This document shows, one piece after another, positions 1 through 50,714 of a stretch of 64,000 nucleotides of DNA. The number at the start of each line of letters is the position of its first letter. Position 1 is the stretch's first letter. The stretch comes from Salminus brasiliensis (taxonomy: Eukaryota > Chordata > Actinopteri > Characiformes > Bryconidae). A program made the position numbers and the translations under genes. The DNA is taken from NCBI RefSeq assembly GCF_030463535.1, contig NC_132901.1, positions 289,621 through 353,620 on the forward strand. Reading direction: 5' to 3'. The notes below the pieces were generated by a model that searched no databases, had not been told where the DNA came from, and saw nothing but the letters and a program-made list of their open reading frames with translations.

Positions 1-185
1 AAAGAAATACATAAGTAAACAATATTATTTTGCATACTAGGATCCATGTTTCACACATGTAGAAGCAACTTATAACTCTTATTATAAAAGAGAACATTCG
101 ATGCATTAGTAAACAGTCTAAAATAGTCTTTATAAAATGTAATTCATAGAAACTTTATTGTCTCTTCAGAAAGATACCACATACA

Positions 186-600
186 TTTACATTTACATTT
201 AAGGCATTTAGCAGAAGCTCTTCTCCAGAGTGCTTTGCTATTTACCCAAGAAAAACCTCAGCTAGTTTAAATAGACTAAAATTCAAAGCTCCTCTAATCT
301 TAGACTCTACTAAACACAAGTCAGTATGGAGACCATAGTACTCTTCTCTTCGCCTGAGTCCTCTCAGAAGAGGAGGGGCTTCAGTCTGGGTTTGAGGACA
401 GCGAGCGTTGGACTCTGCTGTTCGGACACCCAGAGGAAGTTCGTTCCACCACTTCGGTGCAGGACAGTAAAAAGTCTGGACGCTCGTCTTCCGTGGATCC
501 TAAAGGATGGCGGGTCGAGCCAGTCTTGGCTTTGTAGGTCAGAGTCAGGGGGTTGAATCTGATGACCTGGGCAGCTACAGGAAGCCATATGTTAGATCTT
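186..600. repeat. Interspersed repeat remnant, copy 1
   Basis: It begins with the fish-repeat motif 'acatttacatttaaggcatt' followed by a 'gcagaagctcttctccagag' core. It continues into a GC-richer stretch that is open on both strands for about 75 codons. No conserved protein domain is visible in either short frame, so I treat it as transposon-derived. The family assignment is from general familiarity with fish repeats and is uncertain. Confidence 0.5.
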
Positions 601-2803
601 CATAGGAGGTGTGCAAGGAAACACTGTGAAAAAATAATATAAAAATGAATTAAAATCAGGGCAAGATCTCAAGATTTGTCTATCCAGAGCACATTGTCGT
701 TGTCCTTAGGATGATTTTCTCTGGGAAATGTTAGTCTGATGTTCTGCACCTGATTCTAATTCTATATATTTAAATGTGTAATAAATGTGTGAGGGGGTGG
801 GAGGGGTGGTGGTGGTTAAAGCTGTTTCTTCAGTTGTGTAAGTTTAGTGATCACGTGAAGATCATGAGTTACAGATAAGGGTTTCATGGGTCTGTCCTCT
901 TTCTTTCACATGCAGTGTGGCAGTGTGCTGTGCCTGTAGTTGGGTTTAGGTGCATTAGTGCAATGCTCAGCAGTTAGACCAGTCTGTGCTGCACTTTCTG
1001 TTCTGTTTGTTTGGTAGAACATCTACATTAGTAGACACATTCACTCACTCACTTCTCCATTTCTGCTAGCAATGTCTAAATATATTATTGTTAATGTCTT
1101 ATTTTGTCAAAATAATGTTTCTTAAAATTGTAATTTAATGAGTAAAACTAACTATAGCAATAGCACAAAAATATGTTTTCTAAAAACCTCAATTTAATTT
1201 AGTATCTCAAAATATAGGCTTATTTCATTATATAGCTTATTAATCACTTAATCATCTGTTTAATTTAATATCTCAAAACACTCTTTACTGTTTCAGACAA
1301 AGGTTTAAGCTTATTAGGATCTCAAAATAGTTACCTAGCATTTTCAACATTGTATATTGGAATGAGTTATTTTCAATATTCAGACTATTTGTTTTCACAA
1401 ATATGATTTATCACCTGAAAATAATTTGTTTTTATTTGGTTTTGGTTTTATTTGCTTCACCTGCTCAACTGACATTTAATTTAATGTCTTAAATTCTAGC
1501 TTACTTTTAATAAAAGTCTATTTCCACAAAGCCGAAGCAAAAAAGCATGTCAGACTTATAATGTTTAATCTCAGCAACTTTCTGTTCCGTTATTTTCTCT
1601 TAGAACCTCAGTCTTCAGTTTACAAAATAAGTTCTTTGCCTTTTAACTAAATCACAAAGAGCAGTTTTATTAAACTATAGTTTATAGTACTGCACACAAA
1701 CTAAAGAAAGTAATGAATTCAATGTGCCCTATTCAGGAAAACATGGCTTAACGTCCCCTGCTAATAATACCCCACTTGGCTGCTTTTAGAAGCAACCCTG
1801 GATTCATTAAATTATGTATTTATAACAAATACAGTACAGCTAAGTACAGTACAGAACAGCAAAGTAGTTACAGCAATTTAGAATACAAAATTACCACTTT
1901 AAGTAAATTATTTTCTTGTTAAATGAACAAATCACTTTTTACAGTGTATTACAAGAAATGTTTTCTCTAAAATGTGGCTTTCACAATTAGAATTAAGTAT
2001 CATAAAATACTGGCTTATTTTCTGGCTTATTCCCATTTCCAACAGATTAAACTATTTTTAAAATGATTTATTTAATACAATTTATGTTTCTAAATATAGT
2101 GGGCTATTTTGTCTTTACTTAGAACCTCTAGATAATTATATATTTGCTTGATATTTTGATGTAAATTAAAATAACATTATATCACATTTTTATTCTACAT
2201 ATTTTTACTTTGTCAAAATAAGGCATTGCAGTATGTTCATTATTTACCTTCCCATAAAATAATTTACTTATATATCTTCTATATAAAATAATAGACGTAT
2301 ATATCTTCCATGTAAAATTATATGTTTATATTTTTATGCTTGTATTCTCCTCTCTGTAAGGACATGGCCAGCCGTGCTCAAAGCCCTGACCAAAGAGATA
2401 CTGTGCCCTAGTGGCTCAGCTGGAAGCAAAACTGAATCAGCAACTTTTTAAAGTTCTTTTCAGATCATGCTATTTCCTGCCATATCTCCCAGTGGTTCAT
2501 TGTCCCATAAATCAGCAGATTTCTGCTCTCACTGTTGGGGCACTGCTGTTGTCCCTGTTTACCCTTCAGAGGGCCTTTCAGTGGGTTTAACTGTTTTGGT
2601 AATAGTGGACTAATGCAGTAAAGGCACTGTGAGTAATGAAATATTCATTAGTATTTCTTAGGGATGAATATATTAGGCAGCGAGTGAACAGTCAGTTCCT
2701 AAAAATGATAAAGGTGTTGAAGCAGGGAACAGGGTTATGGGCACCTAAGGCTTATTAATGCATTTGGAGGTCCCACCTCAGGACCCACTTGCAGGATGGT
2801 CTT
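601..2803. other. AT-rich intergenic DNA, copy 1
   Basis: No gene, RNA or recognisable transposon is seen. The stretch is AT-rich, with many short 'aatttaat' and 'tctcaaaata' runs. It is the distal upstream flank of MABP-1. Confidence 0.6.
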
Positions 2804-2899
2804 CACTCTTAAAAATGAAGTGCAAATAGTTCTTTGAGTGAATCCATAGAAGAACCACTTCTGGTTTCCGAAGAAACAAGATTTTCATTTTTTAGGGTG
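2804..2899. mobile_element. MITE-like element, internally deleted copy
   Basis: The ends form an approximately 16-bp imperfect terminal inverted repeat (CACTCTTAAAAATGAA against the complement of TTCATTTTTTAGGGTG). This copy is 96 bp. The duplicate at 33,601 is 151 bp and has 55 bp of extra internal sequence, so this copy has probably lost its centre. Confidence 0.65.
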
Positions 2900-3011
2900 A
2901 TGGTGTGAAAGGATTTGACCAAAGTTAGAAGATAAAGAGTTGATCACTTCACAAAACCAGTGTACAGTTTATCTTCATCTCCAACAATGGAGTGTTTCAA
3001 ATGATCAGCAG

Positions 3012-3077
3012 CCAATTGGTCAACAAAGTGGGTATGACTGGAAAGTCCCAGACACACCCTCAGTGGGTTATATATAA
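3012..3077 (+). promoter_or_regulatory. MABP-1 core promoter (CCAAT, kappaB-like, TATA)
   Basis: A CCAAT box lies at 3,012-3,016. GGAAAGTCCC at 3,040-3,049 is the exact complement of the classical NF-kappaB decamer GGGACTTTCC. TATATATAA lies at 3,069-3,077. Transcription would start near 3,100, giving a non-coding exon 1 that ends at the donor after 3,167 (tttgaag/gtagaa). The compact arrangement suggests inflammation-inducible expression. That is an inference from motifs only. Confidence 0.6.
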
Positions 3078-3398
3078 TGCTGGAGTTTAGGGTGGTTCAC
3101 GTAATTCTTCCAACCGGAGCGTTCATATACACCAGTCGTGTGTCTGAGGACAACACCTGCTTTGAAGGTAGAATTTTATTTTTCTCAATCCTCTGTAAAT
3201 TTCGGTGTTGGAGATTCAGTGTTGGCTGTTCTGAGTAGGGTTTGGTGTGAAGCTGAGGTTCATTGTAGGGAAACTAACCAGCTCTGATTTCTTCATCTTC
3301 ATGAATTAGCTTCATAAAAGCTGATGTTTTGGAAATAATGTTTATATTCTGTGTTCTCATATTTCACATTTCAGTCAACGGCTCCACTCAAACCTGAA

Positions 3399-4292
3399 AT
3401 GGCTGACGATCAACCCATCACAAACCTTGGTGTGTCCACCTCCTCTGATGAAGGAGATATTCTGAGAGCTCAAGGTTTCAATGTCATCAACGCTAACCTG
3501 AACTCCAAGACTTCAGGACCAAAAGTGTGTCTTTGGTACAAGAAGGAGTGTGGTATGAAGCCAATCACCAGGATCCAGTTCTCATTTACGTCTGATATGA
3601 AGTCTGGTTTGATCAGTGCTGGGTTTGAACAGATATCAAGGGATCTGAATGCTGGGACCTCTGGAGATCACATCTTTCTTTGGTACCTGTGTGGTGAGAA
3701 AGAAGATGACATTCCCATTGTGGACATGAAGGTGACCCTCAACGTGAATGAGGAACCAGAGCTCTTGAAGGATGGCTATGAGCAGCTAGGTTGCGACCTG
3801 AACCGCGGTGCTGGGGGAGACTGGGTCTACCTGTGGGTAAAGCGGAAGGAGCCAACCTACATCTATGAGATCACCGCGACCGACAACAGCAGCCGCGACA
3901 AATCACTTTACGAGCAAGGGTACACTTGTGTGGATGAAAGCACCAACCGGTATGCCAAGGGAAATCCCATCTTCCTCTGGTACCGCCGCTCAAAAGACAA
4001 GAGCAAAGCCCTGAGTAATCTGGATGTTTCCTTAAACCCTCAGAGTGAGTTTAACCTGCAGCAGAAAGGCTACACTAAGGTCATTACAAACCTTAACAAA
4101 GGAAGCGGTGGGGCTGACGTTTATGTGTGGAGCCTAAAAGATGGGTGTCAGAAGATCCAAGGCATTAATCTGCTGGTCAACCCTAAAGCAATGATAGAAT
4201 ACGAGAAGGCTGGTGTGGAAGTCATTGACAAGGATCTAAATGAGGGCAACATTGGGAAACATCCGATCAACATTGCATACTATGCTGCATAA
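3399..4292 (+). CDS. MABP-like beta-prism repeat protein, copy 1
   Basis: Predicted intracellular protein of 297 aa with no signal peptide or membrane segment. I chose ATG 3,399 (MADDQ) because an acceptor ends at 3,374 (catttcag) after a 207-bp intron. The frame is open further upstream only through the intron. The protein has six repeats of about 48-50 aa (roughly residues 7-50, 55-98, 105-150, 155-198, 205-247, 253-296). Each has a GY/GF, then a DLN-G-x-x-G turn, then an aromatic strand such as IFLWY. This pattern resembles the MABP domain (MVB12, DENN proteins, the perforin-2 P2 domain), a three-fold beta-prism, so six repeats suggest two domains. Repeat 4 has lost the DLN turn. The family assignment is by motif, and the biochemical role is unknown. 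Membrane or lipid binding is possible. Confidence 0.8.
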   Translation: MADDQPITNLGVSTSSDEGDILRAQGFNVINANLNSKTSGPKVCLWYKKECGMKPITRIQFSFTSDMKSGLISAGFEQISRDLNAGTSGDHIFLWYLCGEKEDDIPIVDMKVTLNVNEEPELLKDGYEQLGCDLNRGAGGDWVYLWVKRKEPTYIYEITATDNSSRDKSLYEQGYTCVDESTNRYAKGNPIFLWYRRSKDKSKALSNLDVSLNPQSEFNLQQKGYTKVITNLNKGSGGADVYVWSLKDGCQKIQGINLLVNPKAMIEYEKAGVEVIDKDLNEGNIGKHPINIAYYAA

Positions 4293-4335
4293 CAGCATCG
4301 TCGAAGATTCAGGTTATTGGCCACAGTTTGATTTC

Positions 4336-4379
4336 TGTAGGTGATGTATATATATATATATATATATACATCACCTACA
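4336..4379. repeat. TA-core perfect palindrome in MABP-1 3' UTR
   Basis: TGTAGGTGATG and its complement CATCACCTACA flank a (TA)n core, making a 44-bp perfect hairpin about 45 bp after the stop codon. It could fold in the mRNA or extrude as a cruciform in DNA. The duplicate is 8 bp longer. Confidence 0.85.
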
Positions 4380-4516
4380 TATAGAAAATGAATAATACTC
4401 TATCAGTGCAATCAGTAATAATGGAATTTGTTCATAATTCTCAATGTCTACTAAAATCTGATTCTGTTATACTCTAATAGCTGTAATTCTAACTGTGTTT
4501 GATCCAGCTCCTCTAA

Positions 4517-4522
4517 AATAAA
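4517..4522 (+). terminator. Polyadenylation signal, MABP-1
   Basis: AATAAA about 225 bp after the stop codon, followed within 40 bp by a GT/T-rich stretch (gattgtcttttgagtctctttg). This is the likely 3' end of the transcript. Confidence 0.6.
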
Positions 4523-4730
4523 GCCAGATTTGACAGCAGAAAACGATTGTCTTTTGAGTCTCTTTGTTGAAAAATGTATGTGAGCTCATTTGCTTTCAAT
4601 TTTTACTCAGTTTAAATCCAAATCAGATATCAAGTTTACTGCACAACTATTAGCTTCTTGTAACCTTTATTAAGATTGCCAATTGCCAATTACAATACAG
4701 TTTTTCTACCATCTATCAATACTAAAAAAG

Positions 4731-5026
4731 TAAAAGGTAAAGGTGCACGTATTTGTCACTGTACAGTGTGGACTGTACAGCGAAATGTGTCCTCCACATT
4801 TAACCCATCTGGTAGTGAACACACACTCACACACACACATGTGATAGGGGCAGTGAGTACACACACACCCAGAGCGGTGGGCAGCCAACTCCAGCGCCCG
4901 GGGAGCAGAGAGGGTAAAGGGCCTTGCTCAAGGGCCCAACAGTGGCAGCTTGCCGAGCCCGGGAATCGAACCCACAACCCTGTTATCGATAACCCGGCGC
5001 TCTAACCGCTGAGCCACCACTGCCCC
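4731..5026 (-). mobile_element. tRNA-derived SINE, copy 1
   Basis: Read on the minus strand it opens with GGGGCAGTGGTGGCTCAGCG, which contains an A-box-like TGGCTCAGCGG. A perfect B-box core, GGTTCGATTCCC, follows. Then come a tRNA-unrelated body, a CA/GT stretch and a tail ending in CTTTACCTTTTA. The same head appears at 63,921. It is a dispersed element, not a functional tRNA gene. Confidence 0.85.
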
Positions 5027-5339
5027 ACACTACTGCTGCTAATACATATTCCAAATATTTGTGAACATCCCTTCTATTAAATGCATTTAATTACTTCAAG
5101 TTGCACCCATTGCTGATATTCCCTGTAGAAAAGTACATTCTGACTTCAGTAACACTCTGAATGCAATCAAATCCATGCCCCTCCAAAACATAGTAGAAAG
5201 CCTTCTTCCCTGGACAGTAGAGACAGTAACTTAAAAAGCACAATAAACTCTTTTTAGTACTCTTGATTTGATAAGCGCATGGCATTTTTTAAAACTAAAA
5301 ACACAGTGTTTTGTGTTTAATGGATCTCTAAGAAAAAAA

Positions 5340-6020
5340 ATGGATTAACGATAAAATTGAGGTACACTAAGGTAAAATGGGGGTAAACTGATGTAAAACT
5401 GAGGCACAACTCAAAGTGATGTAAAACTGAGGTAGAATGGGATAAACAGATGTAATACTAAGGGAAACTGAGGTAAAACAGGTAAAAATGGAGTAAACTG
5501 ATGTAAGTCTGAGGTAAAAATTGAGTAAACTGAGGTACAACTGAGGTAAAAATGGAGTAAACTGATGTAAGTCTGAGGTAAAAATTGAGTAAACTGAGGT
5601 ACAACTGAGGTAAAAATGGAGTAAACTGAGGTACAACGGAGGTAAAATGGAGTAAACTGATGTCAAATCAGGTAAAATGATGTAAAATGAGACAAACACC
5701 TGAGAAAGGCTCTTCACAAGACAATGTGAAGATTTGATGAGTTTGAACTCATTCTGTGGCTAAAGTTAGGTAAAATGGAATAAACTGATGTAAAACTGAG
5801 GTAAAAATGGAGTAAACTGATGAAAAACTGAGGTAAAATAGGGTTAACAGATGTAAAACTAAGGTAAAACTGAGGTAAAATGGAGTACACTGATGTAAAA
5901 CTGAGGTAAAAATGGAGTGAAGTGAAGCACAACTGAGGTAAAATGGAGTAAACTGATGTAAAACTATGGTACAAATGGAGTAAACTGATGTAAAACTGAG
6001 GTAAAATGATGTCAGATGTC
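5340..6020. repeat. Degenerate 30-bp minisatellite, copy 1
   Basis: Diverged units of the type 'gaggtaaaaatggagtaaac' plus 'tgatgtaaaact' are tandemly arranged. They are the reverse complement of the large array at 21,885-24,080. A non-repeat spacer (about 5,700-5,768) is duplicated at 6,027-6,093. The long minus-strand frames here are products of the repeat, not genes. Confidence 0.85.
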
Positions 6021-6093
6021 ATACACCTGTGAAAGGCTTTCACAAGACAATGTGAAGATTTGATGAGTTTGAACTCATTCTGTGGCTAAAGTT

Positions 6094-6712
6094 AGATAGC
6101 ACTAGCTAGCTTTCTTGGCGTTTGATAAGCTAGCTGACTTAGAAGTTGGTAAGTGAATTTATTGTTAGCTTATTTTTGTTAGTTAATGGTGGTAGCCATC
6201 TCTTAATGCTGTTCTGCATTTTCTTCTTTTAAAAGCAAAATATGTCTAGGTTTGTCGTAGGCTGTCACTCAGTTGATGCTAATTTGTTAAGTGAATGTGA
6301 AATGTAAACTGTTATAGCACACAAAAGTTATCTTGGGGCTCCCGGATTATTTGTTATTTTAGAATTTAATGTGCTTTAACAATTGTTAACGATAATATAA
6401 AGAATTTTAGAGTTAGAATGTGACTGTTTATGTCTTTTAACCCAGGACCTATGACCTTAAAGCAAGCCTAAATGCCTGTACTCTGTTCTTGTGATAAATA
6501 AATTAAAAAAAAATAAGAAATTGATAGGTAATAATGGTATTCCATGTTCCGCAGTAAAAGTTAATAGTGGAGTCGATGGTTCCGAGGTCGACCTACTTGA
6601 AGAGTTCTCCTGTTTCCACTCAGTCCATATGAGACTCCCACTCCTCACACTAACAGAACTCTGCTCTCCACTCACACACTGTATTCCACACTGTTAAAGT
6701 TCAACTTTTTAG
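6094..6712. other. Intergenic DNA, copy 1
   Basis: No gene is recognised. It contains repeated 'gctagc' and 'gttagc' words and AT-rich sequence between the minisatellite and the Tc1 remnant. The duplicate lies at 36,956-37,574. Confidence 0.5.
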
Positions 6713-7021
6713 TCACATGCGTCCCAAACTGTAAGGGGGTGGTCTGTCACGGCTCTGGTCTTTACGTCGATATGGAGAACTTTCGTTCCACAGACTAAAA
6801 GGGGGTCTGAGGTCATCTATATGTTTTAAAGCAGACGCAAGACGGGCCTTTGTGTGCTTTTTGGTCAGCAGGAATTCGCGCTTGCAACCCTCGTATGGAT
6901 GCCATTTTCGCCCAGTGTCTTTCTTGTTGTGGAATTGTGAACACTGACCTGAGGAAAGTGAGGCCTGCAGTTCTTTAGATGTTTGTCTGTTTTTTTTTTT
7001 GCTGTCTTTGATCAGTGACAT
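6713..7021 (-). pseudogene. Tc1-like transposase remnant, copy 1
   Basis: The minus strand encodes about 100 residues that look like a decayed Tc1/mariner transposase. A helix-turn-helix-like segment (RQTSKELQASL) is followed by LLTKKHTKARLASALKHIDD, the usual segment ahead of the catalytic 'FW..VLWSDE' motif. That motif survives only as FSLWNES. The catalytic DDE region is missing and no terminal repeats are evident, so it is inactive. The same insertion is seen at 37,575 and, inverted, near 19,900. Confidence 0.7.
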
Positions 7022-7079
7022 AAAAGAACTGTTTGAATTGGCAAAGAACCTTTATATCAAACATACCATCGTAATTATT

Positions 7080-7273
7080 CAACCATGACTGTCCTGCCTC
7101 TGTGATGTGGACTGCGAAACTCAGAGATCAGAGCAATGACAAGACACTTCCTGTCCCCTGTAACATCTGTGCAAATGACCTGCTCCAACTGCCAAGCATG
7201 AATTTACACTTTTTGCCTTATTTATTTATTGAACTTTGCTGGACTGCTCAACATCACGACAGCTCTACATAAG
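7080..7273 (+). promoter_or_regulatory. itln-A promoter and 5' non-coding exon
   Basis: This block is conserved with the inverted itln-B upstream region (about 19,480-19,680) although surrounding DNA has diverged. Shared words include ATGACAAGACACTTCCTGT, with an ETS-like TTCCTG, and ACTTTTTGCCTTATTTATTT, a TATA-like stretch. A non-coding exon probably ends at 7,273 (cataag/gtaggt). A second non-coding exon fits 7,695-7,774. Start sites are inferred only. Confidence 0.5.
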
Positions 7274-7505
7274 GTAGGTGTTCTTAGTAGTGCATACAAA
7301 CATCTGCATTAACTTTTAACGTTTACGCTAAACCAATAGTTGAATTGGTGGCTTATGAAAACGTAGCGCTGAATACCTCTGATATTTTTATATCTTATAT
7401 TATGAACAGTTTGCAGTGGTTGATGTTCTGTGTTCAGTTTATTGCAAAAACAATACTATTGAAATCTTTTGAAATTTTAGCACTATTTTTATCCATGAAT
7501 GCACA

Positions 7506-7620
7506 CTATATAGACAAAAGTATTCGGACATCTGCTTATTAATTGTCACCCCAACTTCCCCAACTCATCCCAAATAAACTGGACGAAGCACCATGCCAGA
7601 AAAGTACAGATGTATCAAGC
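7506..7620. mobile_element. Fragment of inverted-repeat element (CACTATAT family)
   Basis: Begins 'cactatatagacaaaagtat', a terminus shared with 24,386 and 56,698. Only one end and part of the interior are present. The duplicate lies at 38,368-38,482. Confidence 0.5.
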
Positions 7621-7866
7621 CTAGACACACACAACTGAGTAAACTAGATACTGTCTATATAACTTAACTCAATAGACTTCACTTTCTCGAACAGGACACT
7701 TACCATCAACGCCAACCCAATTGATCATTGAGACGAACATCACAGCTCACAGAAACACCACTGCAGCGCAGCAGGTAATATTCAACTGATGTCTTATAGA
7801 AAACTTTATACAGCTTGTAAAGATTAATTTCCAATTTCATCCTTTTTTGCAGACTTTTCTACAAGT

Positions 7867-11131
<3,265 letters not shown>

Positions 11132-20930: not shown

Positions 20931-21884
20931 TTCATGTTTCAGCTTGTTCAGATTTTTGTTAAACAATGTTGAAAACATTTCTTCATTTTTCTTTTAATTC
21001 AAGTACTTAACAATAAACACAAACATAATACTGTTACAGTTGCAATGGTGAATAAACATACTCACCAGCATGCCTGTGTTTTTCTCTTCAATTCGCTCTT
21101 CTTTCTTCTAACAAATCAGCCAGGCGGTCTTTCCTTTCCAAGGTGGAAAACCATGCCAACGCCCATGTCTTCGCTAAGCAAAATTGGGTTAGCTAGCTAA
21201 ACAGCTGATGCAGTGGTTTGGTCAAAATTTAACCAGGCAGATTGTTTTGTTTGTCAAATACAATCAGGAACCACAAACAGGGTTCTCTAATGAAGACAGG
21301 TGAAAGTGCTGAGAGAAAATATACTTTTTAAGGTTGATTTTAAATCAAGAAGAATGGTCACAGTGTTTCTGAGGAATGCCACTTAAATGCCTAATGGCAG
21401 TCTGGTTTTAGGGTCCGCCAGCAGACCACTATTAGTGGACGAGTCCCCCAGTAGACCAGTATTGGTGGACCTAAGAGTGCGAGAAGGTGTCTAGGGTTGC
21501 AGAAGCTAGAAATGGTAAAACGGGACAGTTGCAGAGCAGCTCATCACCTCCAGACTCTTCTAGTTATCAGATTCAGGAACCAGCGGATTTTCCTGTGCCC
21601 AGGACTGCAGGTCTGTCCATCGTCTGCCCCCTTGCCAAACTGCCGCTAAACACTCATCAGAAGGGAAAGCACCATAAACCATACTAAGCTAAGCAGAAAT
21701 AAGCTAAGCTCACTAAATTCACTTAGCTACTAGCTACCCCCTCAGTTAGCTTAGCAAATGCTACAGTAGCAAGTGCTATCTAACTTTAGCCACTGAATTA
21801 ATTTAAACTCACCAAATCTTCACTTTATATTGGGAAGAGCCTTTCACAGTGAGATGTTTGTCTCACCTGAGCTCATTTTACTTC
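20931..21884. other. Intergenic DNA before the large minisatellite
   Basis: No gene is seen. It contains a short direct repeat about the word 'accactattagtggacgag' / 'accagtattggtggacctaa' (21,424-21,475) and 'gctaagct' runs. The last 100 bp match 6,020-6,115 in inverted orientation. Confidence 0.5.
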
Positions 21885-24080
21885 AGGTGTATCTCATTTT
21901 TACCTTGGTTTACCTCAGTTTACCCATTTTTACCTCAGTTTTACCTCAGTTTACCCCATTTGATCTCTGTTTATCCCAGTTTACCCAATTGTGCCTCAGT
22001 TTAACCTCCGTTTACCCTATTGTACCTCAGTCTATCCCAGTTTACCCCATATTACCTCAGTTTATCACGGTTCACTCTATTTTACCCCAGTCTACCCCTT
22101 TTTACCTGTTTATCCGAGTTTACTCTATTTAACCTCAGTTTATCACAGTTTACTCCATTTTACCTCAGTCTACCTCATTTTTACCTCAGTTTATCCCAGT
22201 TTACACCATTTTACCTCAGTTTATCCCAGTTTACTCCATTTTACCTCAGTCTACCTCATTTTTACCTCAGTTTATCCGAGTTTACTCCATTTTACCTCAG
22301 TTTTACCTCAGTTTATCACAGTTTACTCCATTTTACCTCAGTCTACCTCATTTTTACCTCAGGTTATCCGAGTTTATCCCATTTTACCTCAGTTTATCCC
22401 AGTTTACTCCATTTTACCGCAGTTTATCCCAGTTTACTCCATTTTACCTCAGTTTATCACAGTTTACTCCATTTTACCTCAGTTTATCACAGTTTACTCC
22501 ATTTTACCCCAGTTTACTCCATTTTTACCTCAGTTTGTCACAGTTTACTCCATTTTTACCTCAGTTTGTCACAGTTTACTCCATTTTTACCTCAGTTTAT
22601 CACAGTTTACTCCATTTTACCTCAGTTTATCACAGTTTACTCCATTTTTACCTCAGTTTATCACAGTTTACTCCATTTTACCTCAGTTTATCACAGTTTA
22701 CTCCATTTTACCCCAGTTTACTCCATTTTTACCTCAGTTTATCACAGTTTACTCCATTTTTACCTCAGTTTATCACAGTTTACTCCATTTTACCTCAGTT
22801 TATCACAGTTTACTCCATTTTACCCCAGTTTACTCCATTTTTACCTCAGTTTATCACAGTTTACTCCATTTTTACCTCAGTTTATCACAGTTTACTCCAT
22901 TTTACCTCAGTTTATCACAGTTTACTCCATTTTACCCCAGTTTACTCCATTTTTACCTCAGTTTGTCACAGTTTACTCCATTTTACCTCAGTTTACTCCA
23001 TTTTTACTTCAGTTTGTCACAGTTTACTCCATTTTACCTCAGTTTATCCCAGTTTACTCCATTTTACCTCAGTCTACCTCATTTTTACCTCAGTTTATCC
23101 GAGTTTACTCCATTTTACCTCAGTTTTACCTCAGTTTATCACAGTTTACTCCATTTTACCTCAGTCTACCTCATTTTTACCTCAGGTTATCCGAGTTTAT
23201 CCCATTTTACCTCAGTTTATCCCAGTTTACTCCATTTTACCGCAGTTTATCCCAGTTTACTCCATTTTACCTCAGTTTATCACAGTTTACTCCATTTTAC
23301 CTCAGTTTATCACAGTTTACTCCATTTTACCCCAGTTTACTCCATTTTACCTCAGTTTATCACAGTTTACTCCATTTTACCTCAGTTTATCACAGTTTAC
23401 TCCATTTTTACCTCAGTTTATCACAGTTTACTCCATTTTACCTCAGTTTATCACAGTTTACTCCATTTTACCCCAGTTTACTCCATTTTTACCTCAGTTT
23501 GTCACAGTTTACTCCATTTTACCTCAGTTTGTCACAGTTTACTCCATTTTACCTCAGTTTATCACAGTTTACTCCATTTTTACTTCAGTTTGTCACAGTT
23601 TACTCCATTTTACCTCAGTTTATCACAGTTTACTCCATTTTACCCCAGTTTACTCCATTTTACCTCAGTTTATCACAGTTTACTCCATTTTACCTCAGTT
23701 TATCACAGTTTACTCCATTTTTACCTCAGTTTATCACAGTTTACTCCATTTTACCTCAGTTTATCACAGTTTACTCCATTTTACCCCAGTTTACTCCATT
23801 TTTACCTCAGTTTGTCACAGTTTACTCCATTTTACCTCAGTTTGTCACAGTTTACTCCATTTTTACTTCAGTTTGTCACAGTTTACTCCATTTTACCTCA
23901 GTTTGTCACAGTTTACTCCATTTTACCTCAGTTTACTCCATTTTTACTTCAGCTTATCTGAGTTTACTCCATTTTTACCTCAGTTTGTCACAGTTTACTC
24001 CATTTTTACCTCAGTTTATCACAGTTTACTCCATTTTACCTCAGTTTTACCTCAGTTTACGCAATTTGTACCTCAGTTTT
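21885..24080 (+). repeat. 2.2 kb minisatellite, 30-bp unit, open in three frames
   Basis: The consensus unit is 'cagtttatcacagtttactc' followed by 'cattttacct' (30 bp), with single-T indels and blocks of several units repeated as groups. Because 30 is a multiple of three and no plus-strand frame of the unit holds a stop, all three frames stay open for 517-699 codons. The translations (QFITVYSILP, SLSQFTPFYL, VYHSLLHFTS) are frame variants of one repeat. I see no promoter, splice context or homology for a gene. Confidence 0.95.
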
Positions 24081-24275
24081 ATCGTTAATCCAGTGTCTTC
24101 TCTCGATTATCCGTTATAAGCCTCTAATCGTCTATTTGGTTAAAAAAAAAAAGCCGCGCGCTTCTTAAAGCGACAGGCACCACTATAACGCTGTATTGGC
24201 TGAGAGTTAACAGCAGGCTGAGAGGCACGTGAACTTGTGCACGTTATAAGCGTTATTTCTTTAAACAACAGCAGC

Positions 24276-25058: not shown

Positions 25059-29110
<4,052 letters not shown>

Positions 29111-30797: not shown

Positions 30798-30982
30798 AAA
30801 GAAATACATAAGTAAACAATATTATTTTGCATACTAGGATCCATGTTTCACACATGTAGAAGCAACTTATAACTCTTATTATAAAAGAGAACATTCGATG
30901 CATTAGTAAACAGTCTAAAATAGTCTTTATAAAATGTAATTCATAGAAACTTTATTGTCTCTTCAGAAAGATACCACATACA

Positions 30983-31397
30983 TTTACATTTACATTTAAG
31001 GCATTTAGCAGAAGCTCTTCTCCAGAGTGCTTTGCTATTTACCCAAGAAAAACCTCAGCTAGTTTAAATAGACTAAAATTCAAAGCTCCTCTAATCTTAG
31101 ACTCTACTAAACACAAGTCAGTATGGAGACCATAGTACTCTTCTCTTCGCCTGAGTCCTCTCAGAAGAGGAGGGGCTTCAGTCTGGGTTTGAGGACAGCG
31201 AGCGTTGGACTCTGCTGTTCGGACACCCAGAGGAAGTTCGTTCCACCACTTCGGTGCAGGACAGTAAAAAGTCTGGACGCTCGTCTTCCGTGGATCCTAA
31301 AGGATGGCGGGTCGAGCCAGTCTTGGCTTTGTAGGTCAGAGTCAGGGGGTTGAATCTGATGACCTGGGCAGCTACAGGAAGCCATATGTTAGATCTT
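30983..31397. repeat. Interspersed repeat remnant, copy 2
   Basis: Duplicate of the element at 186-600, carried with the segmental duplication. Both overlapping short reading frames are unchanged. Confidence 0.5.
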
Positions 31398-33600
31398 CAT
31401 AGGAGGTGTGCAAGGAAACACTGTGAAAAAATAATATAAAAATGAATTAAAATCAGGGCAAGATCTCAAGATTTGTCTATCCAGAGCACATTGTCGTTGT
31501 CCTTAGGATGATTTTCTCTGGGAAATGTTAGTCTGATGTTCTGCACCTGATTCTAATTCTATATATTTAAATGTGTAATAAATGTGTGAGGGGGTGGGAG
31601 GGGGGGTGGTGGTTAAAGCTGTTTCTTCAGTTGTGTAAGTTTAGTGATCACGTGAAGATCATGAGTTACAGATAAGGGTTTCATGGGTCTGTCCTCTTTC
31701 TTTCACGTGCAGTGTGGCAGTGTGCTGTGCCTGTAGTTGGGTTTAGGTGCATTAGTGCAATGCTCAGCAGTTAGACCAGTCTGTGCTGCACTTTCTGTTC
31801 TGTTTGTTTGGTAGAACATCTACATTAGTAGACACATTCACTCACTCACTTCTCCATTTCTGCTAGCAATGTCTAAATATATTATTGTTAATGTCTTATT
31901 TTGTCAAAATAATGTTTCTTAAAATTGTAATTTAATGAGTAAAACTAACTATAGCAATAGCACAAAAATATGTTTTCTAAAAACCTCAATTTAATTTAGT
32001 ATCTCAAAATATAGGCTTATTTCATTATATAGCTTATTAATCACTTAATCATCTGTTTAATTTAATATCTCAAAACACTCTTTACTGTTTCAGACAAAGG
32101 TTTAAGCTTATTAGGATCTCAAAATAGTTACCTAGCATTTTCAACATTGTATATTGGAATGAGTTATTTTCAATATTCAGACTATTTGTTTTCACAAATA
32201 TGATTTATCACCTGAAAATAATTTGTTTTTATTTGGTTTTGGTTTTATTTGCTTCACCTGCTCAACTGACATTTAATTTAATGTCTTAAATTCTAGCTTA
32301 CTTTTAATAAAAGTCTATTTCCACAAAGCCGAAGCAAAAAAGCATGTCAGACTTATAATGTTTAATCTCAGCAACTTTCTGTTCCGTTATTTTCTCTCAG
32401 AACCTCAGTCTTCAGTTTACAAAATAAGTTCTTTGCCTTTTAACTAAATCACAAAGAGCAGTTTTATTAAACTATAGTTTATAGTACTGCACACAAACTA
32501 AAGAAAGTAATGAATTCAATGTGCCCTATTCAGGAAAACATGGCTTAACGTCCCCTGCTAATAATACCCCACTTGGCTGCTTTTAGAAGCAACCCTGGAT
32601 TCATTAAATTATGTATTTATAACAAATACAGTACAGCTAAGTACAGTACAGTACAGCAAAGTAGTTACAGCAATTTAGAATACAAAATTACCACTTTAAG
32701 TAAATTATTTTCTTGTTAAATGAACAAATCACTTTTTACAGTGTATTACAAGAAATGTTTTCTCTAAAATGTGGCTTTCACAATTAGAATTCAGTATCAT
32801 AAAATACTGGCTTATTTTCTGGCTTATTCCCATTTCCAACAGATTAAACTATTTTTAAAATGATTTATTTAATACAATTTATGTTTCTAAATATAGTGGG
32901 CTATTTTGTCTTTACTTAGAACCTCTAGATAATTATATATTTGCTTGATATTTTGATGTAAATTAAAATAACATTATATCACATTTTTATTCTACATATT
33001 TTTACTTTGTCAAAATAAGGCATTGCAGCATGTTCATTATTTACCTTCCCATAAAATAATTTACTTATATATCTTCTATATAAAATAATAGACGTATATA
33101 TCTTCCATGTAAAATTATATGTTTATATTTTTATGCTTGTATTCTCCTCTCTGTAAGGACATGGCCAGCCGTGCTCAAAGCCCTGACCAAAGAGATACTG
33201 TGCCCTAGTGGCTCAGCTGGAAGCAAAACTGAATCAGCAACTTTTTAAAGTTCTTTTCAGATCATGCTATTTCCTGCCATATCTCCCAGTGGTTCATTGT
33301 CCCATAAATCAGCAGATTTCTGCTCTCACTGTCGGGGCACTGCTGTTGTCCCTGTTTACCCTTCAGAGGGCCTTTCAGTGGGTTTAACTGTTTTGGTAAT
33401 AGTGGACTAATGCAGTAAAGGCACTGTGAGTAATGAAATATTCATTAGTATTTCTTAGGGATGAATATATTAGGCAGCGAGTGAACAGTCAGTTCCTAAA
33501 AATGATAAAGGTGTTGAAGCAGGGAACAGGGTTATGGGCACCTAAGGCTTATTAATGCATTTGGAGGTCCCACCTCAGGACCCACTTGCAGGATGGTCTT
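31398..33600. other. AT-rich intergenic DNA, copy 2
   Basis: Duplicate of 601-2,803 with only scattered substitutions. No gene is seen. Confidence 0.6.
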
Positions 33601-33751
33601 CACTCTTAAAAATGAAGTGCAAATAGTTCTTTGAGTGAATCCATAGAAGAACCACTTCTGGTTTCCGAAGAAACATGTCTGTAATGGACATGTAAATGTT
33701 AGGAACCATTTCTACACAGTGGTGAGCAGAAGGTTTTCATTTTTTAGGGTG
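33601..33751. mobile_element. MITE-like element, longer copy
   Basis: Same element as 2,804-2,899, with the same roughly 16-bp terminal inverted repeats and the 55-bp internal part present. It lies about 140 bp upstream of the MABP-2 core promoter. Confidence 0.65.
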
Positions 33752-33863
33752 ATGGTGTGAAAGGATTTGACCAAAGTTAGAAGATAAAGAGTTGATCACT
33801 TCACAAAACCAGTGTACAGTTTATCTTCATCTCCAACAATGGAGTGTTTCAAATGATCAGCAG

Positions 33864-33929
33864 CCAATTGGTCAACAAAGTGGGTATGACTGGAAAGTCC
33901 CAGACACACCCTCAGTGGGTTATATATAA
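33864..33929 (+). promoter_or_regulatory. MABP-2 core promoter (CCAAT, kappaB-like, TATA)
   Basis: All three elements of the MABP-1 promoter are conserved: CCAAT at 33,864, GGAAAGTCCC at 33,892-33,901 and TATATATAA at 33,921-33,929. Both copies could therefore be co-regulated. Confidence 0.6.
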
Positions 33930-34250
33930 TGCTGGAGTTTAGGGTGGTTCACGTAATTCTTCCAACTGGAGCGTTCATATACACCAGTCGTGTGTCTGAG
34001 GACAACACCTGCTTTGAAGGTAGAATTTTATTTTTCTCAATCCTCTGTAAATTTCGGTGTTGGAGATTCAGTGTTGGCTGTTCTGAGTAGGGTTTGGTGT
34101 GAAGCTGAGGTTCATTGTAGGGAAACTAACCAGCTCTGATTTCTTCATCTTCATGAATTAGCTTCATAAAAGCTGATGTTTTGGAAATAATGTTTATATT
34201 CTGTGTTCTCATATTTCACATTTCAGTCAACGGCTCCACTCAAACCTGAA

Positions 34251-35144
34251 ATGGCTGACGATCAACCCATCACAAACCTTGGTGTGTCCACCTCCTCTGA
34301 TGAAGGAGATATTCTGAGAGCTCAAGGTTTCAATGTCATCAACGCTAACCTGAACTCCAAGACTTCAGGACCAAAAGTGTGTCTTTGGTACAAGAAGGAG
34401 TGTGGTATGAAGCCAATCACCAGGATCCAGTTCTCATTTACGTCTGATATGAAGTCTGGTTTGATCAGTGCTGGGTTTGAACAGATATCAAGGGATCTGA
34501 ATGCTGGGACCTCTGGAGATCACATCTTTCTTTGGTACCTGTGTGGTGAGAAAGAAGATGACATTCCCATTGTGGACATGAAGGTGACCCTCAACGTGAA
34601 TGAGGAACCAGAGCTCTTGAAGGATGGCTATGAGCAGCTAGGTTGCGACCTGAACCGCGGTGCTGGGGGAGACTGGGTCTACCTGTGGGTAAAGCGGAAG
34701 GAGCCAACCTACATCTATGAGATCACCGCGACCGACAACAGCAGCCGCGACAAATCACTTTACGAGCAAGGGTACACTTGTGTGGATGAAAGCACCAACC
34801 GGTATGCCAAGGGAAATCCCATCTTCCTCTGGTACCGCCGCTCAAAAGACAAGAGCAAAGCCCTGAGTAATCTGGATGTTTCCTTAAACCCTCAGAGTGA
34901 GTTTAACCTGCAGCAGAAAGGCTACACTAAGGTCATTACAAACCTTAACAAAGGAAGCGGTGGGGCTGACGTTTATGTGTGGAGCCTAAAAGATGGGTGT
35001 CAGAAGATCCAAGGCATTAATCTGCTGGTCAACCCTAAAGCAATGATAGAATACGAGAAGGCTGGTGTGGAAGTCATTGACAAGGATCTAAATGAGGGCA
35101 ACATTGGGAAACATCCGATCAACATTGCATACTATGCTGCATAA
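34251..35144 (+). CDS. MABP-like beta-prism repeat protein, copy 2
   Basis: The predicted 297-aa product is identical to that of the copy at 3,399-4,292, including the degenerate fourth repeat. The exon 1 donor (after 34,019), the acceptor (before 34,227) and the start codon are all preserved. It sits upstream of itln-D in the same relative position as copy 1 does to itln-A, so the pair was duplicated as a unit. Complete identity implies either very recent duplication, gene conversion or assembly redundancy. Which copy is expressed cannot be told from sequence. Confidence 0.8.
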   Translation: MADDQPITNLGVSTSSDEGDILRAQGFNVINANLNSKTSGPKVCLWYKKECGMKPITRIQFSFTSDMKSGLISAGFEQISRDLNAGTSGDHIFLWYLCGEKEDDIPIVDMKVTLNVNEEPELLKDGYEQLGCDLNRGAGGDWVYLWVKRKEPTYIYEITATDNSSRDKSLYEQGYTCVDESTNRYAKGNPIFLWYRRSKDKSKALSNLDVSLNPQSEFNLQQKGYTKVITNLNKGSGGADVYVWSLKDGCQKIQGINLLVNPKAMIEYEKAGVEVIDKDLNEGNIGKHPINIAYYAA

Positions 35145-35187
35145 CAGCATCGTCGAAGATTCAGGTTATTGGCCACAGTTTGATTTC

Positions 35188-35193
35188 TGTAGG

Positions 35194-35233
<40 letters not shown>

Positions 35234-35239
35234 CCTACA
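35188..35239. repeat. TA-core perfect palindrome in MABP-2 3' UTR
   Basis: Same hairpin as at 4,336-4,379, with the TA core expanded by 8 bp to give a 52-bp palindrome. The flanking arms are unchanged. Confidence 0.85.
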
Positions 35240-35376
35240 TATAGAAAATGAATAATACTCTATCAGTGCAATCAGTAATAATGGAATTTGTTCATAATTC
35301 TCAATGTCTACTAAAATCTGATTCTGTTATACTCTAATAGCTGTAATTCTAACTGTGTTTGATCCAGCTCCTCTAA

Positions 35377-35382
35377 AATAAA
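35377..35382 (+). terminator. Polyadenylation signal, MABP-2
   Basis: AATAAA in the same context as in copy 1, with the same downstream GT-rich stretch. Confidence 0.6.
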
Positions 35383-35592
35383 GCCAGATTTGACAGCAGA
35401 AAACGATTGTCTTTTGAGTCTCTTTGTTGAAAAATGTATGTGAGCTCTAAATTGCTTTCAATTTTTACTCAGTTTAAATCCAAATCAGATATCAAGTTTA
35501 CTGCACAACTATTAGCTTCTTGTAACCTTTATTAAGATTGCCAATTGCCAATTACAATACAGTTTTTCTACCATCTATCAATACTAAAAAAG

Positions 35593-35888
35593 TAAAAGGT
35601 AAAGGTGCACGTATTTGTCACTGTACAGTGTGGACTGTACAGCGAAATGTGTCCTCTGCATTTAACACATCCGGTAGTGAACACACACTCACACACACAT
35701 GTGTTAGGGGCAGTGAATACACACACACACCCAGAGCGGTGGGCAGCCAACTCCAGCGCCCGGGGAGCAGAGAGGGTAAAGGGCCTTGCTCAAGGACCCA
35801 ACAGTGGCAGCTTGCCGAGCCTGGGAATCGAACCCACAACCCTGTTATCGATAACCCGGCGCTCTAACCGCTGAGCCACCACTGCCCC
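35593..35888 (-). mobile_element. tRNA-derived SINE, copy 2
   Basis: Duplicate of the 4,731 SINE, with several substitutions clustered in the CA-rich middle. It was carried along by the segmental duplication rather than inserted independently, since the flanks match. Confidence 0.85.
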
Positions 35889-36201
35889 ACACTACTGCTG
35901 CTAATACATATTCCAAATATTTGTGAACATCCCTTCTATTAAATGCATTTAATTACTTCAAGTTGCACCCATTGCTGATATTCCCTGTAGAAAAGTACAT
36001 TCTGACTTCAGTAACACTCTGAATGCAATCAAATCCATGCCCCTCCAAAACATAGTAGAAAGCCTTCTTCCCTGGACAGTAGAGACAGTAACGTAAAAAG
36101 CACAATAAACTCTTTTTAGTACTCTTGATTTGATAAGCGCATGGCATTTTTTAAAACTAAAAACACAGTGTTTTGTGTTTAATGGATCTCTAAGAAAAAA
36201 A

Positions 36202-36882
36202 ATGGATTAACGATAAAATTGAGGTACACTAAGGTAAAATGGGGGTAAACTGATGTAAAACTGAGGCACAACTCAAAGTGATGTAAAACTGAGGTAGAAT
36301 GGGATAAACAGATGTAATACTAAGGGAAACTGAGGTAAAACAGGTAAAAATGGAGTAAACTGATGTAAGTCTGAGGTAAAAATTGAGTAAACTGAGGTAC
36401 AACTGAGGTAAAAATGGAGTAAACTGATGTAAGTCTGAGGTAAAAATTGAGTAAACTGAGGTACAACTGAGGTAAAAATGGAGTAAACTGAGGTACAACG
36501 GAGGTAAAATGGAGTAAACTGATGTCAAATCAGGTAAAATGATGTAAAATGAGACAAACACCTGAGAAAGGCTCTTCACAAGACAATGTGAAGATTTGAT
36601 GAGTTTGAACTCATTCTGTGGCTAAAGTTAGGTAAAATGGAATAAACTGATGTAAAACTGAGGTAAAAATGGAGTAAACTGATGAAAAACTGAGGTAAAA
36701 TAGGGTTAACAGATGTAAAACTAAGGTAAAACTGAGGTAAAATGGAGTACACTGATGTAAAACTGAGGTAAAAATGGAGTGAAGTGAAGCACAACTGAGG
36801 TAAAATGGAGTAAACTGATGTAAAACTATGGTACAAATGGAGTAAACTGATGTAAAACTGAGGTAAAATGATGTCAGATGTC
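36202..36882. repeat. Degenerate 30-bp minisatellite, copy 2
   Basis: Duplicate of 5,340-6,020, essentially unchanged. It shows no unit gain or loss that I can see, which is notable for a tandem repeat and fits a very recent duplication. Confidence 0.85.
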
Positions 36883-37574
36883 ATACACCTGTGAAAGGCT
36901 TTCACAAGACAATGTGAAGATTTGATGAGTTTGAACTCATTCTGTGGCTAAAGTTAGATAGCACTAGCTAGCTTTCTTGGCGTTTGATAAGCTAGCTGAC
37001 TTAGAAGTTGGTAAGTGAATTTATTGTTAGCTTATTTTTGTTAGTTAATGGTGGTAGCCATCTCTTAATGCTGTTCTGCATTTTCTTCTTTTAAAAGCAA
37101 AATATGTCTAGGTTTGTCGTAGGCTGTCACTCAGTTGATGCTAATTTGTTAAGTGAATGTGAAATGTAAACTGTTATAGCACACAAAAGTTATCTTGGGG
37201 CTCCCGGATTATTTGTTATTTTAGAATTTAATGTGCTTTAACAATTGTTAACGATAATATAAAGAATTTTAGAGTTAGAATGTGACTGTTTATGTCTTTT
37301 AACCCAGGACCTATGACCTTAAAGCAAGCCTAAATGCCTGTACTCTGTTCTTGTGATAAATAAATAAAAAAAAAATAAGAAATTGATAGGTAATAATGGT
37401 ATTCCATGTTCCGCAGTAAAAGTTAATAGTGGAGTCGATGGTTCCGAGGTCGACCTACTTGAAGAGTTCTCCTGTTTCCACTCAGTCCATATGAGACTCC
37501 CACTCCTCACACTAACAGAACTCTGCTCTCCACTCACACACTGTATTCCACACTGTTAAAGTTCAACTTTTTAG

Positions 37575-37883
37575 TCACATGCGTCCCAAACTGTAAGGGG
37601 GTGGTCTGTCACGGCTCTGGTCTTTACGTCGATATGGAGAACTTTCGTTCCACAGACTAAAAGGGGGTCTGAGGTCATCTATATGTTTTAAAGCAGACGC
37701 AAGACGGGCCTTTGTGTGCTTTTTGGTCAGCAGGAATGCGCGCTTGCAACCCTCGTATGGATGCCATTTTCGCCCAGTGTCTTTCTTGTTGTGGAATTGT
37801 GAACACTGACCTGAGGAAAGTGAGGCCTGCAGTTCTTTAGATGTTTGTCTGTTTTTTTTTTTGCTGTCTTTGATCAGTGACAT
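37575..37883 (-). pseudogene. Tc1-like transposase remnant, copy 2
   Basis: Duplicate of the 6,713 remnant with one clear residue change (REFLL to RAFLL). It is non-functional for the same reasons: no catalytic core and no intact ends. Confidence 0.7.
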
Positions 37884-37941
37884 AAAAGAACTGTTTGAAT
37901 TGGCAAAGAACCTTTATATCAAACATACCATCGTAATTATT

Positions 37942-38135
37942 CAACCATGACTGTCCTGCCTCTGTGATGTGGACTGCGAAACTCAGAGATCAGAGCAATG
38001 ACAAGACACTTCCTGTCCCCTGTAACATCTGTGCAAATGACCTGCTCCAACTGCCAAGCATGAATTTACACTTTTTGCCTTATTTATTTATTGAACTTTG
38101 CTGGACTGCTCAACATCACGACAGCTCTACATAAG
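37942..38135 (+). promoter_or_regulatory. itln-D promoter block
   Basis: Near-identical copy of the itln-A block at 7,080-7,273. The pseudogene therefore keeps an apparently intact promoter and may still be transcribed. Confidence 0.5.
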
Positions 38136-38367
38136 GTAGGTGTTCTTAGTAGTGCATACAAACATCTGCATTAACTTTTAACGTTTACGCTAAACCAATA
38201 GTTGAATTGGTGGCTTATGAAAACGTAGCGCTGAATACCTCTGATATTTTTATATCTTATATTATGAACAGTTTGCAGTGGTTGATGTTCTGTGTTCAGT
38301 TTATTGCAAAAACAATACTATTGAAATCTTTTGAAATTTTAGCACTATTTTTATCCATGAATGCACA

Positions 38368-38482
38368 CTATATAGACAAAAGTATTCGGACATCTGCTTA
38401 TTAATTGTCACCCCAACTTCCCCAACTCATCCCAAATAAACTGGACGAAGCACCATGCCAGAAAAGTACAGATGTATCAAGC
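38368..38482. mobile_element. Fragment of inverted-repeat element (CACTATAT family), copy 2
   Basis: Duplicate of the 7,506 fragment, carried with the segmental duplication. Confidence 0.5.
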
Positions 38483-38728
38483 CTAGACACACACAACTGA
38501 GTAAACTAGATACTGTCTATATAACTTAACTCAATAGACTTCACTTTCTCGAACAGGACACTTACCATCAACGCCAACCCAATTGATCATTGAGACGAAC
38601 ATCACAGCTCACAGAAACACCACTGCAGCGCAGCAGGTAATATTCAACTGATGTCTTATAGAAAACTTTATACAGCTTGTAAAGATTAATTTCCAATTTC
38701 ATCCTTTTTTGCAGACTTTTCTACAAGT

Positions 38729-41677
<2,949 letters not shown>

Positions 41678-46601: not shown

Positions 46602-50714
<4,113 letters not shown>

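Follow-up and report, generated by a model that had tools for sequence, protein, structure and literature searches.

The three DLN loops of one beta-prism in the bacterial protein Mpf2Ba1 coordinate Mg2+ at its three-fold axis; in relatives the ion is Ca2+ (PMC10344926). MVB12B of ESCRT-I also contains a MABP domain (PMC10344926), the MABP domain of MPEG1 binds lipid (PMC7593815), and a role as membrane adaptors has been suggested for MABP domains (PMC7593815, PMC8624791). Here, we analyze a 64-kb stretch of DNA from the fish Salminus brasiliensis (the window; bases 289,621-353,620 of contig C28 in a genome of 1.07 Gb and 103 contigs), which carries two copies, a and b, of a gene for a protein of 297 amino acids (aa) with no domain recognized by Pfam. 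Its sequence supports a reading as two MABP-like beta-prisms in tandem, and it has a family of paralogues in the same genome, some of them beside exons for PYRIN domains (PYDs). Among the open-licence full-text papers that our searches listed, none was seen to describe a fish gene of the tandem-MABP, PYD-MABP or PYD-galectin type.

A protein of six repeats, read as two beta-prisms

The coding sequence (CDS) of copy a translates into six repeats of 46-53 aa (about 49 aa), arranged as two units of three, with G26, N35 and G40 (repeat 1 numbering) invariant across the six aligned repeats (Table 1). The two halves match each other colinearly by BLASTP (E 5e-11 over 135 columns); additional, shifted matches (E 2e-12 to 2e-5) are expected because of the internal repeats. 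Each putative domain contains three homologous segments with a G-aromatic ... D/N-L-N-x-G-x-x-G pattern, as in MABP-type prisms. The placement among MABP domains is based on two results. First, among solved structures only Mpf2Ba1 gives a confident sequence match, which covers the beta-prism part of that protein. Second, in each of the six distinct fish paralogues, the two halves both score higher than 600 shuffled sequences with a profile built from 16 bacterial MABP segments. The first-pass annotation of this DNA had described six short repeats fitting two three-fold MABP-like prisms; the repeats are confirmed, and the prism assignment is supported by the profile and by the Mpf2Ba1 match.

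The same annotation called the protein uncharacterized, and indeed no Pfam or NCBIfam model names it. In particular, Pfam returned no family at E up to 10, including the curated MABP models PF10240 and PF22356, and NCBIfam returned noise only. No Pfam family indicated a MACPF domain, and the MVB12 Pfam model did not match, with no separate search aimed at the UMA part. Of five bacterial relatives scanned with Pfam, two gave sub-threshold matches to PF22356, and one of the two did so to PF10240 as well. An AlphaFold model of the full-length protein, the check suggested for the double prism, was partly informative, with a mean predicted local distance difference test score (pLDDT) of 63.5, about 78 in the first half and about 49 in the second. 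A Foldseek search from this low-confidence model gave 8b6u, 8b6v and 2qp2 as top matches (template modelling scores of 0.21-0.25); among the best 50 of 154 matches, the highest ranking are MACPF proteins that bear a beta-prism.

The bacterial segments came from 30 gathered loci, of which 20 entered alignments A3/A4, 10 entered A5 and 16 entered A6; loci L013, L014, L019, L021, L026, L027, L029, L030, L032 and L034 were excluded throughout as partial, redundant or carrying long inserts. In plasmids, nine bacterial sequences matched weakly (best E 1e-4) and served only as seeds. A tblastn search against phages found no match, and two pattern searches of viral contigs gave 4 and 42 matches, none of which was confirmed. 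On a Nostoc plasmid (L001, 1759-4158), the gene for a hemopexin-repeat protein is immediately followed by one whose product has a MABP-like N-terminal part.

Paralogues in the genome

A whole-genome tblastn search yielded 12 matches: two in the window, seven on contig C21, two on C20 and one on C14. Two of the C21 matches (36.5-37.3k) belong to a single broken gene and one of the C20 matches is a fragment, leaving nine copies or fragments outside the window on three other contigs. Six distinct intact proteins result, with lengths of 283-297 aa, identities of 30-90% and a coding part that is a single exon in each. On C21, four units of about 9 kb lie in tandem; three have identical CDSs, and the fourth (36k) is broken by what is read as a frameshift.

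The Asn that closes the D/N-L-N triad is retained in all six repeats of the C28 gene and of C21_54k, in four of six in the 18k group, C20 and C21_74k, and in one of six in C14; 12 of the 16 bacterial segments have all three. Across five paralogue pairs, the whole-gene ratio of nonsynonymous to synonymous divergence (omega, by the NG86 method) ranges from 0.54 to 0.91, with three intervals including 1 and two below it. In four of these pairs, half 2 has the higher omega of the two halves; the intervals overlap. Positive selection was considered and rejected, as the highest whole-gene values (0.82 and 0.91) and half-2 values (1.06 and 1.08) all have bootstrap intervals that include 1. The C28 gene has omegas of 0.21-0.42 against the other paralogues, only a rough sign of constraint because its synonymous divergence (dS) from them is near saturation.

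Duplicated copies and a kappaB site specific to the locus

All coding sequence of the window gene lies in one exon, behind a predicted leader exon, and a splice acceptor can be read just 5' of the coding exon in all six distinct paralogues, the window gene included. By eye, no signal peptide is evident at the N-terminus (MADDQPITNL...). Upstream, a CCAAT box, the exact kappaB decamer GGGACTTTCC on the complement and the TATA box TATATATAA fall within 66 bp (3012-3077), as first annotated, with 19 bases between decamer and TATA. The chance expectation is 0.06 per 64-kb window for the decamer, no shuffle out of 100 contained two or more, and for the CCAAT-kappaB-TATA composite the expectation is 0.00 per window. 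The looser form GGGRNWYYCC is not rare: it occurs 9 times in the 64 kb where 4.0 would be expected, a count reached or exceeded in 6 of 100 shuffles. Among 77 TATA-like heptamers on the plus strand outside 30798-42600, only two, the overlapping heptamers of this promoter, have the exact decamer at most 100 bp upstream. A palindromic kappaB-like sequence, GGGAAATCCC, also occurs within the coding exon at 3959-3968 (and 34811-34820).

The first-pass annotation had stressed that the promoter occurs in both copies. The motif set does recur in copy b, but copies a and b sit in a duplication of about 31 kb; their 894-bp CDSs are identical in DNA, and from CCAAT box to stop codon they differ by one single-nucleotide polymorphism (3115/33967), inside the predicted leader exon. 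The segmental duplication (1-7972 versus 30798-38834) is 99.4-99.8% identical, falling to about 93% over the next 1.9 kb, and copy b has a 55-bp insertion upstream of its promoter (33675-33729). This indel and the divergence of several per cent past 8 kb indicate that the copies are not simply one locus assembled twice. Because the duplication is recent and near-identical, presence in both copies amounts to one observation and was rejected as evidence of promoter conservation, and the paralogues were taken as the independent test.

Eight other copies representing five distinct genes were scanned over the 2 kb upstream of the ATG (six on C21, whose 18k/27k/36k/45k units are near-identical, one on C20 and one on C14). 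The broken C21_36k gene was used in this count only, and the C20 fragment at 29018.9k was excluded from both the promoter and the selection counts. On either strand, none of the eight contains GGGACTTTCC, GGGRNNYYCC or GGRRNNYYCC. Such an absence is a chance-level outcome for so specific a motif; the point is that the site is not conserved. Among the copies scanned, the kappaB element is thus seen at the C28 locus only, and its candidacy as a trait of the whole gene family was rejected. Its presence makes induction of the window gene plausible, its non-conservation makes induction uncertain, and a motif is in itself no proof of a response.

A CCAAT/ATTGG box lies 47-57 bp (start to start) before TATA at C21_74k and C21_54k as well. 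In pairwise alignment, promoter identity among the 18k group, 54k and 74k is 78-98%, with GCATATAA in the 18k group at the position of TATATAA in 54k. By BLAST, these promoters do not align with that of C28. No CCAAT-TATA promoter of this type was recognized in the 2 kb scanned at C20 and C14.

Intelectin, PYRIN and galectin exons as neighbors

In both window copies, an intelectin exon lies on the same strand about 4 kb past the end of the CDS. The copy-b exon matches solved intelectins (E 3e-41), and eight of its nine genome matches fall at 264.7-337.3 kb of C28, five of them inside the window. Intelectin exons are arranged there both in tandem and inverted, at 8.2-11.1k (+), 17-18.7k (-), 25-28.6k (-), 39-41.8k (+) and 47.4k (+), with like-oriented units about 31-33 kb apart.

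The paralogues on two other contigs have different neighbors. On the plus strand of C20 the order is PYD, MABP, PYD, galectin exons and PYD, followed by a second unit of PYD, degenerate MABP, PYD and PYD. Along the minus strand of C21 it is MABP 74k, PYD 62k, MABP 54k, 45k, 36k (broken), 27k and 18k, PYD 16k, galectin 14k and PYD 8k. Pfam confirmed PYRIN in all seven exons tested (E 1.2e-18 to 3.2e-9) and galectin in all three (E 6e-13 to 1.5e-7). The shared order of parts on C20 and C21 may reflect a single duplication. Around the C14 gene, tblastn over about 25 kb on the 5' side and 14 kb on the 3' side found no PYD. PYRIN exons with adjoining galectin exons on C20 and C21 (L049 6714-7791, L054 4135-4329, L043 1355-1732 and L050 6995-7342) are possible PYD-galectin genes.

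A stretch of about 120 bp that contains TATA box and leader of the MABP gene C21_54k is repeated, with 84-89% identity, at six sites, all of them 5' of a PYD exon; ahead of the other PYD type, a weaker likeness of 76-77% extends over about 95 bp. The PYD exons C20 28975.9k and C21 62k end in a phase-1 donor (ACAG/GTAAGG); the MABP exons are open in phase 1, fitting this donor, in four of the six distinct paralogues and closed in the window gene and the 18k group. When each PYD exon is joined to the next MABP acceptor, the predicted frame stays open, for 397 aa on C20 and for 398 aa on C21 (62k with 54k), and would encode a putative PYD-MABP-MABP protein. At the intact C20 copy, this type of TATA-leader was found upstream of the PYD exon and not between PYD and MABP (10 kb searched), an arrangement that favors a joint transcript there.

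Other features of the window

Self-alignment reveals long minisatellite-like arrays at 21872-24083, 26036-27918 and 49213-50489; one is pyrimidine-rich with long spurious open reading frames, one has a spacing of about 59 bp and one a spacing of about 29 bp. The 59-bp unit also occurs at 8996-9979, and a similar one at 39795-40734. A GC-richer region lies at 57654-58217 on the minus strand, and its frame has what we take to be a likeness to a protocadherin cytoplasmic tail.

Table 1. Features of the window gene, in window coordinates; the leader exon, intron and polyadenylation signal are predictions read from the sequence only.
Feature	Position	Strand	Remark
CCAAT box, copy a	3012-3016	+	
Exact kappaB decamer GGGACTTTCC, copy a	3040-3049	-	
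TATA box TATATATAA, copy a	3069-3077	+	
Predicted 5' leader exon	3100-3167	+	no ATG; start guessed from TATA; end GAAG/GTAGAA
Predicted intron	3168-3374	+	GT...CAG
CDS copy a, tandem MABP-type beta-prism protein (supported reading)	3399-4292	+	297 aa; single uninterrupted frame
Prism unit 1	3399-3848	+	residues 1-150; repeats 1-3
Repeat 1 triad NLN	3495-3503	+	residues 33-35
Repeat 2 triad DLN	3642-3650	+	residues 82-84
Repeat 3 triad DLN	3795-3803	+	residues 133-135
Prism unit 2	3849-4289	+	residues 151-297; repeats 4-6
Repeat 4 triad STN	3939-3947	+	residues 181-183
Repeat 5 triad NLN	4089-4097	+	residues 231-233
Repeat 6 triad DLN	4233-4241	+	residues 279-281
Predicted polyadenylation signal AATAAA	4517-4522	+	
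CCAAT-kappaB-TATA, copy b	33864-33929	+	
CDS copy b	34251-35144	+	DNA-identical to copy a

Interpretation

We read the window gene as coding for a leaderless, probably cytosolic double MABP-prism that would act as an inflammation-inducible binder within a lineage-specific, probably innate-immune family, a reading in which our confidence and our doubt are evenly balanced. By analogy with Mpf2Ba1, the three D/N-L-N-type loops of each prism would meet at a three-fold axis around a divalent metal, and the tandem prisms may bind membrane lipid or glycan bivalently in the cytosol, with damaged or microbial membranes or glycans as the most likely target. The window form would have lost, or never had, a PYD; it stands alone in the intelectin cluster, behind the TATA promoter whose locus-specific kappaB site may make it inflammation-inducible. 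Innate sensing appears to be the likeliest setting because the kin of the gene lie among PYD and galectin exons. The first-pass annotation had proposed an undescribed immune effector; the intelectin neighbors and the PYRIN and galectin exons around the paralogues speak for this only indirectly.

A number of results weigh against this reading. The AlphaFold model is weak, and the five omega comparisons give no sign of positive selection. The loss of Asn from the triads of several paralogues implies that a metal site is not a constant of the family, and the paralogues' upstream regions, lacking kappaB, imply that inducibility may be nil or private to the window locus. Further, a tblastn search of the window and of 35.6 kb of sequence on its left side finds no PYD. 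The PYD-MABP joins are themselves predictions from sequence alone; a TATA leader of its own lies between PYD and MABP at C21_54k, and in the second, degenerate unit of C20 a leader of 91% identity immediately precedes the MABP part.

A wider proposal, tentative and on balance doubtful, is that this fish holds intracellular sensors joining PYRIN to lectin-like modules (PYD-MABP-MABP and PYD-galectin), which would start inflammasomes by reading membranes or glycans directly, without NACHT-LRR, and that the window gene is a detached, kappaB-controlled, PYD-less tuner or decoy among them. The MABP prisms known so far belong to pore-formers and to ESCRT-I. If a vertebrate has them in tandem as a protein of their own, with relatives next to PYRIN exons, intracellular sensing would gain a further binding module. 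This would open to testing the question of whether fish can start inflammasomes via lectin- or lipid-binding prisms joined to a PYD.

Alternatively, the protein could be a constitutive intracellular trafficking adaptor that uses its prisms to attach to endosomal membranes, as in MVB12/ESCRT-I; it would then play no part in immunity, and the kappaB site and the immune neighbors would be accidental. The adaptor function discussed for MABP domains (PMC8624791, PMC7593815), the presence of one such domain in MVB12B of ESCRT-I (PMC10344926), the lack of an evident signal peptide and the non-conserved kappaB site are all compatible with it, as is a weak match of one bacterial relative to the MVB12 Pfam model (E 0.0017), which stays below cut-off. 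The window protein itself has no Pfam domain, and because its six repeats fill the 297 aa, no part is left for a UMA or ESCRT-binding region. Moreover, tandem copies, broken copies and a divergence as wide as 30-90% identity in a single genome do not resemble the pattern of a housekeeping adaptor, and PYRIN and galectin exons are neighbors on two contigs. We consider this explanation unlikely.

The gene could also be the stand-alone remnant of a PYD-MABP receptor, having lost its PYD exon and kept the prism protein as a ligand competitor, or decoy, of PYD-bearing paralogues. The phase-1 entry in four of six paralogues, the TATA-leader segment common to MABP and PYD genes, and the leader position at the intact C20 copy point in this direction. 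Against it, the prism exon may instead have been captured later by PYD genes, the leader stands directly before the MABP part in the degenerate C20 unit, C14 likewise has no PYD in the flanks searched, and the joins are predicted ones; we give this account little credence. Another possibility, a recent duplicate of no functional importance or a duplicate made in assembly, would fit the identical CDS copies, the flanks differing by only about 0.2-0.6% over 1-7972, and the one broken and one degenerate paralogue, and is very improbable given an intact frame, two halves that remain recognizable against bacterial segments and, with dS near saturation, the low omegas of the C28 gene.

Comparison with known systems

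With PYRIN-domain proteins such as NLRs and ASC, the likeness is one of neighborhood: the paralogues adjoin PYRIN exons, two of which have a compatible splice phase, whereas the window gene has no PYD. Stand-alone bacterial MABP-like proteins, of which we know no function, have about 145 aa filled by three repeats, as in one half of the fish protein, and so one prism versus two; in alignment A5, their identities to the fish protein are 28% (L007, Azospirillum), 27% (L016, Photobacterium) and 25% (L012, Cupriavidus).

In Atlantic salmon Gig1-like genes, a small first exon precedes a large coding exon, three copies lie in tandem and a neighbor is annotated as NLRP3-like (PMC12247413); the proteins have 222-240 aa versus 297 aa, and a possible homology is a lead only. 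The MABP domains of MPEG1/perforin-2 and MVB12B belong to the same beta-prism class and are described as membrane-binding (PMC7593815, PMC10344926), but they show no sequence match to the window protein and are parts of larger proteins (MACPF and ESCRT-I). The C-terminal beta-prism of Mpf2Ba1 (PDB 8b6u, 8b6v) shares with the window protein DLN-x-G-x-G-G repeats, three per prism. In Mpf2Ba1, one such prism sits on a MACPF pore-forming domain, whereas the fish protein would pair two prisms without a MACPF domain.
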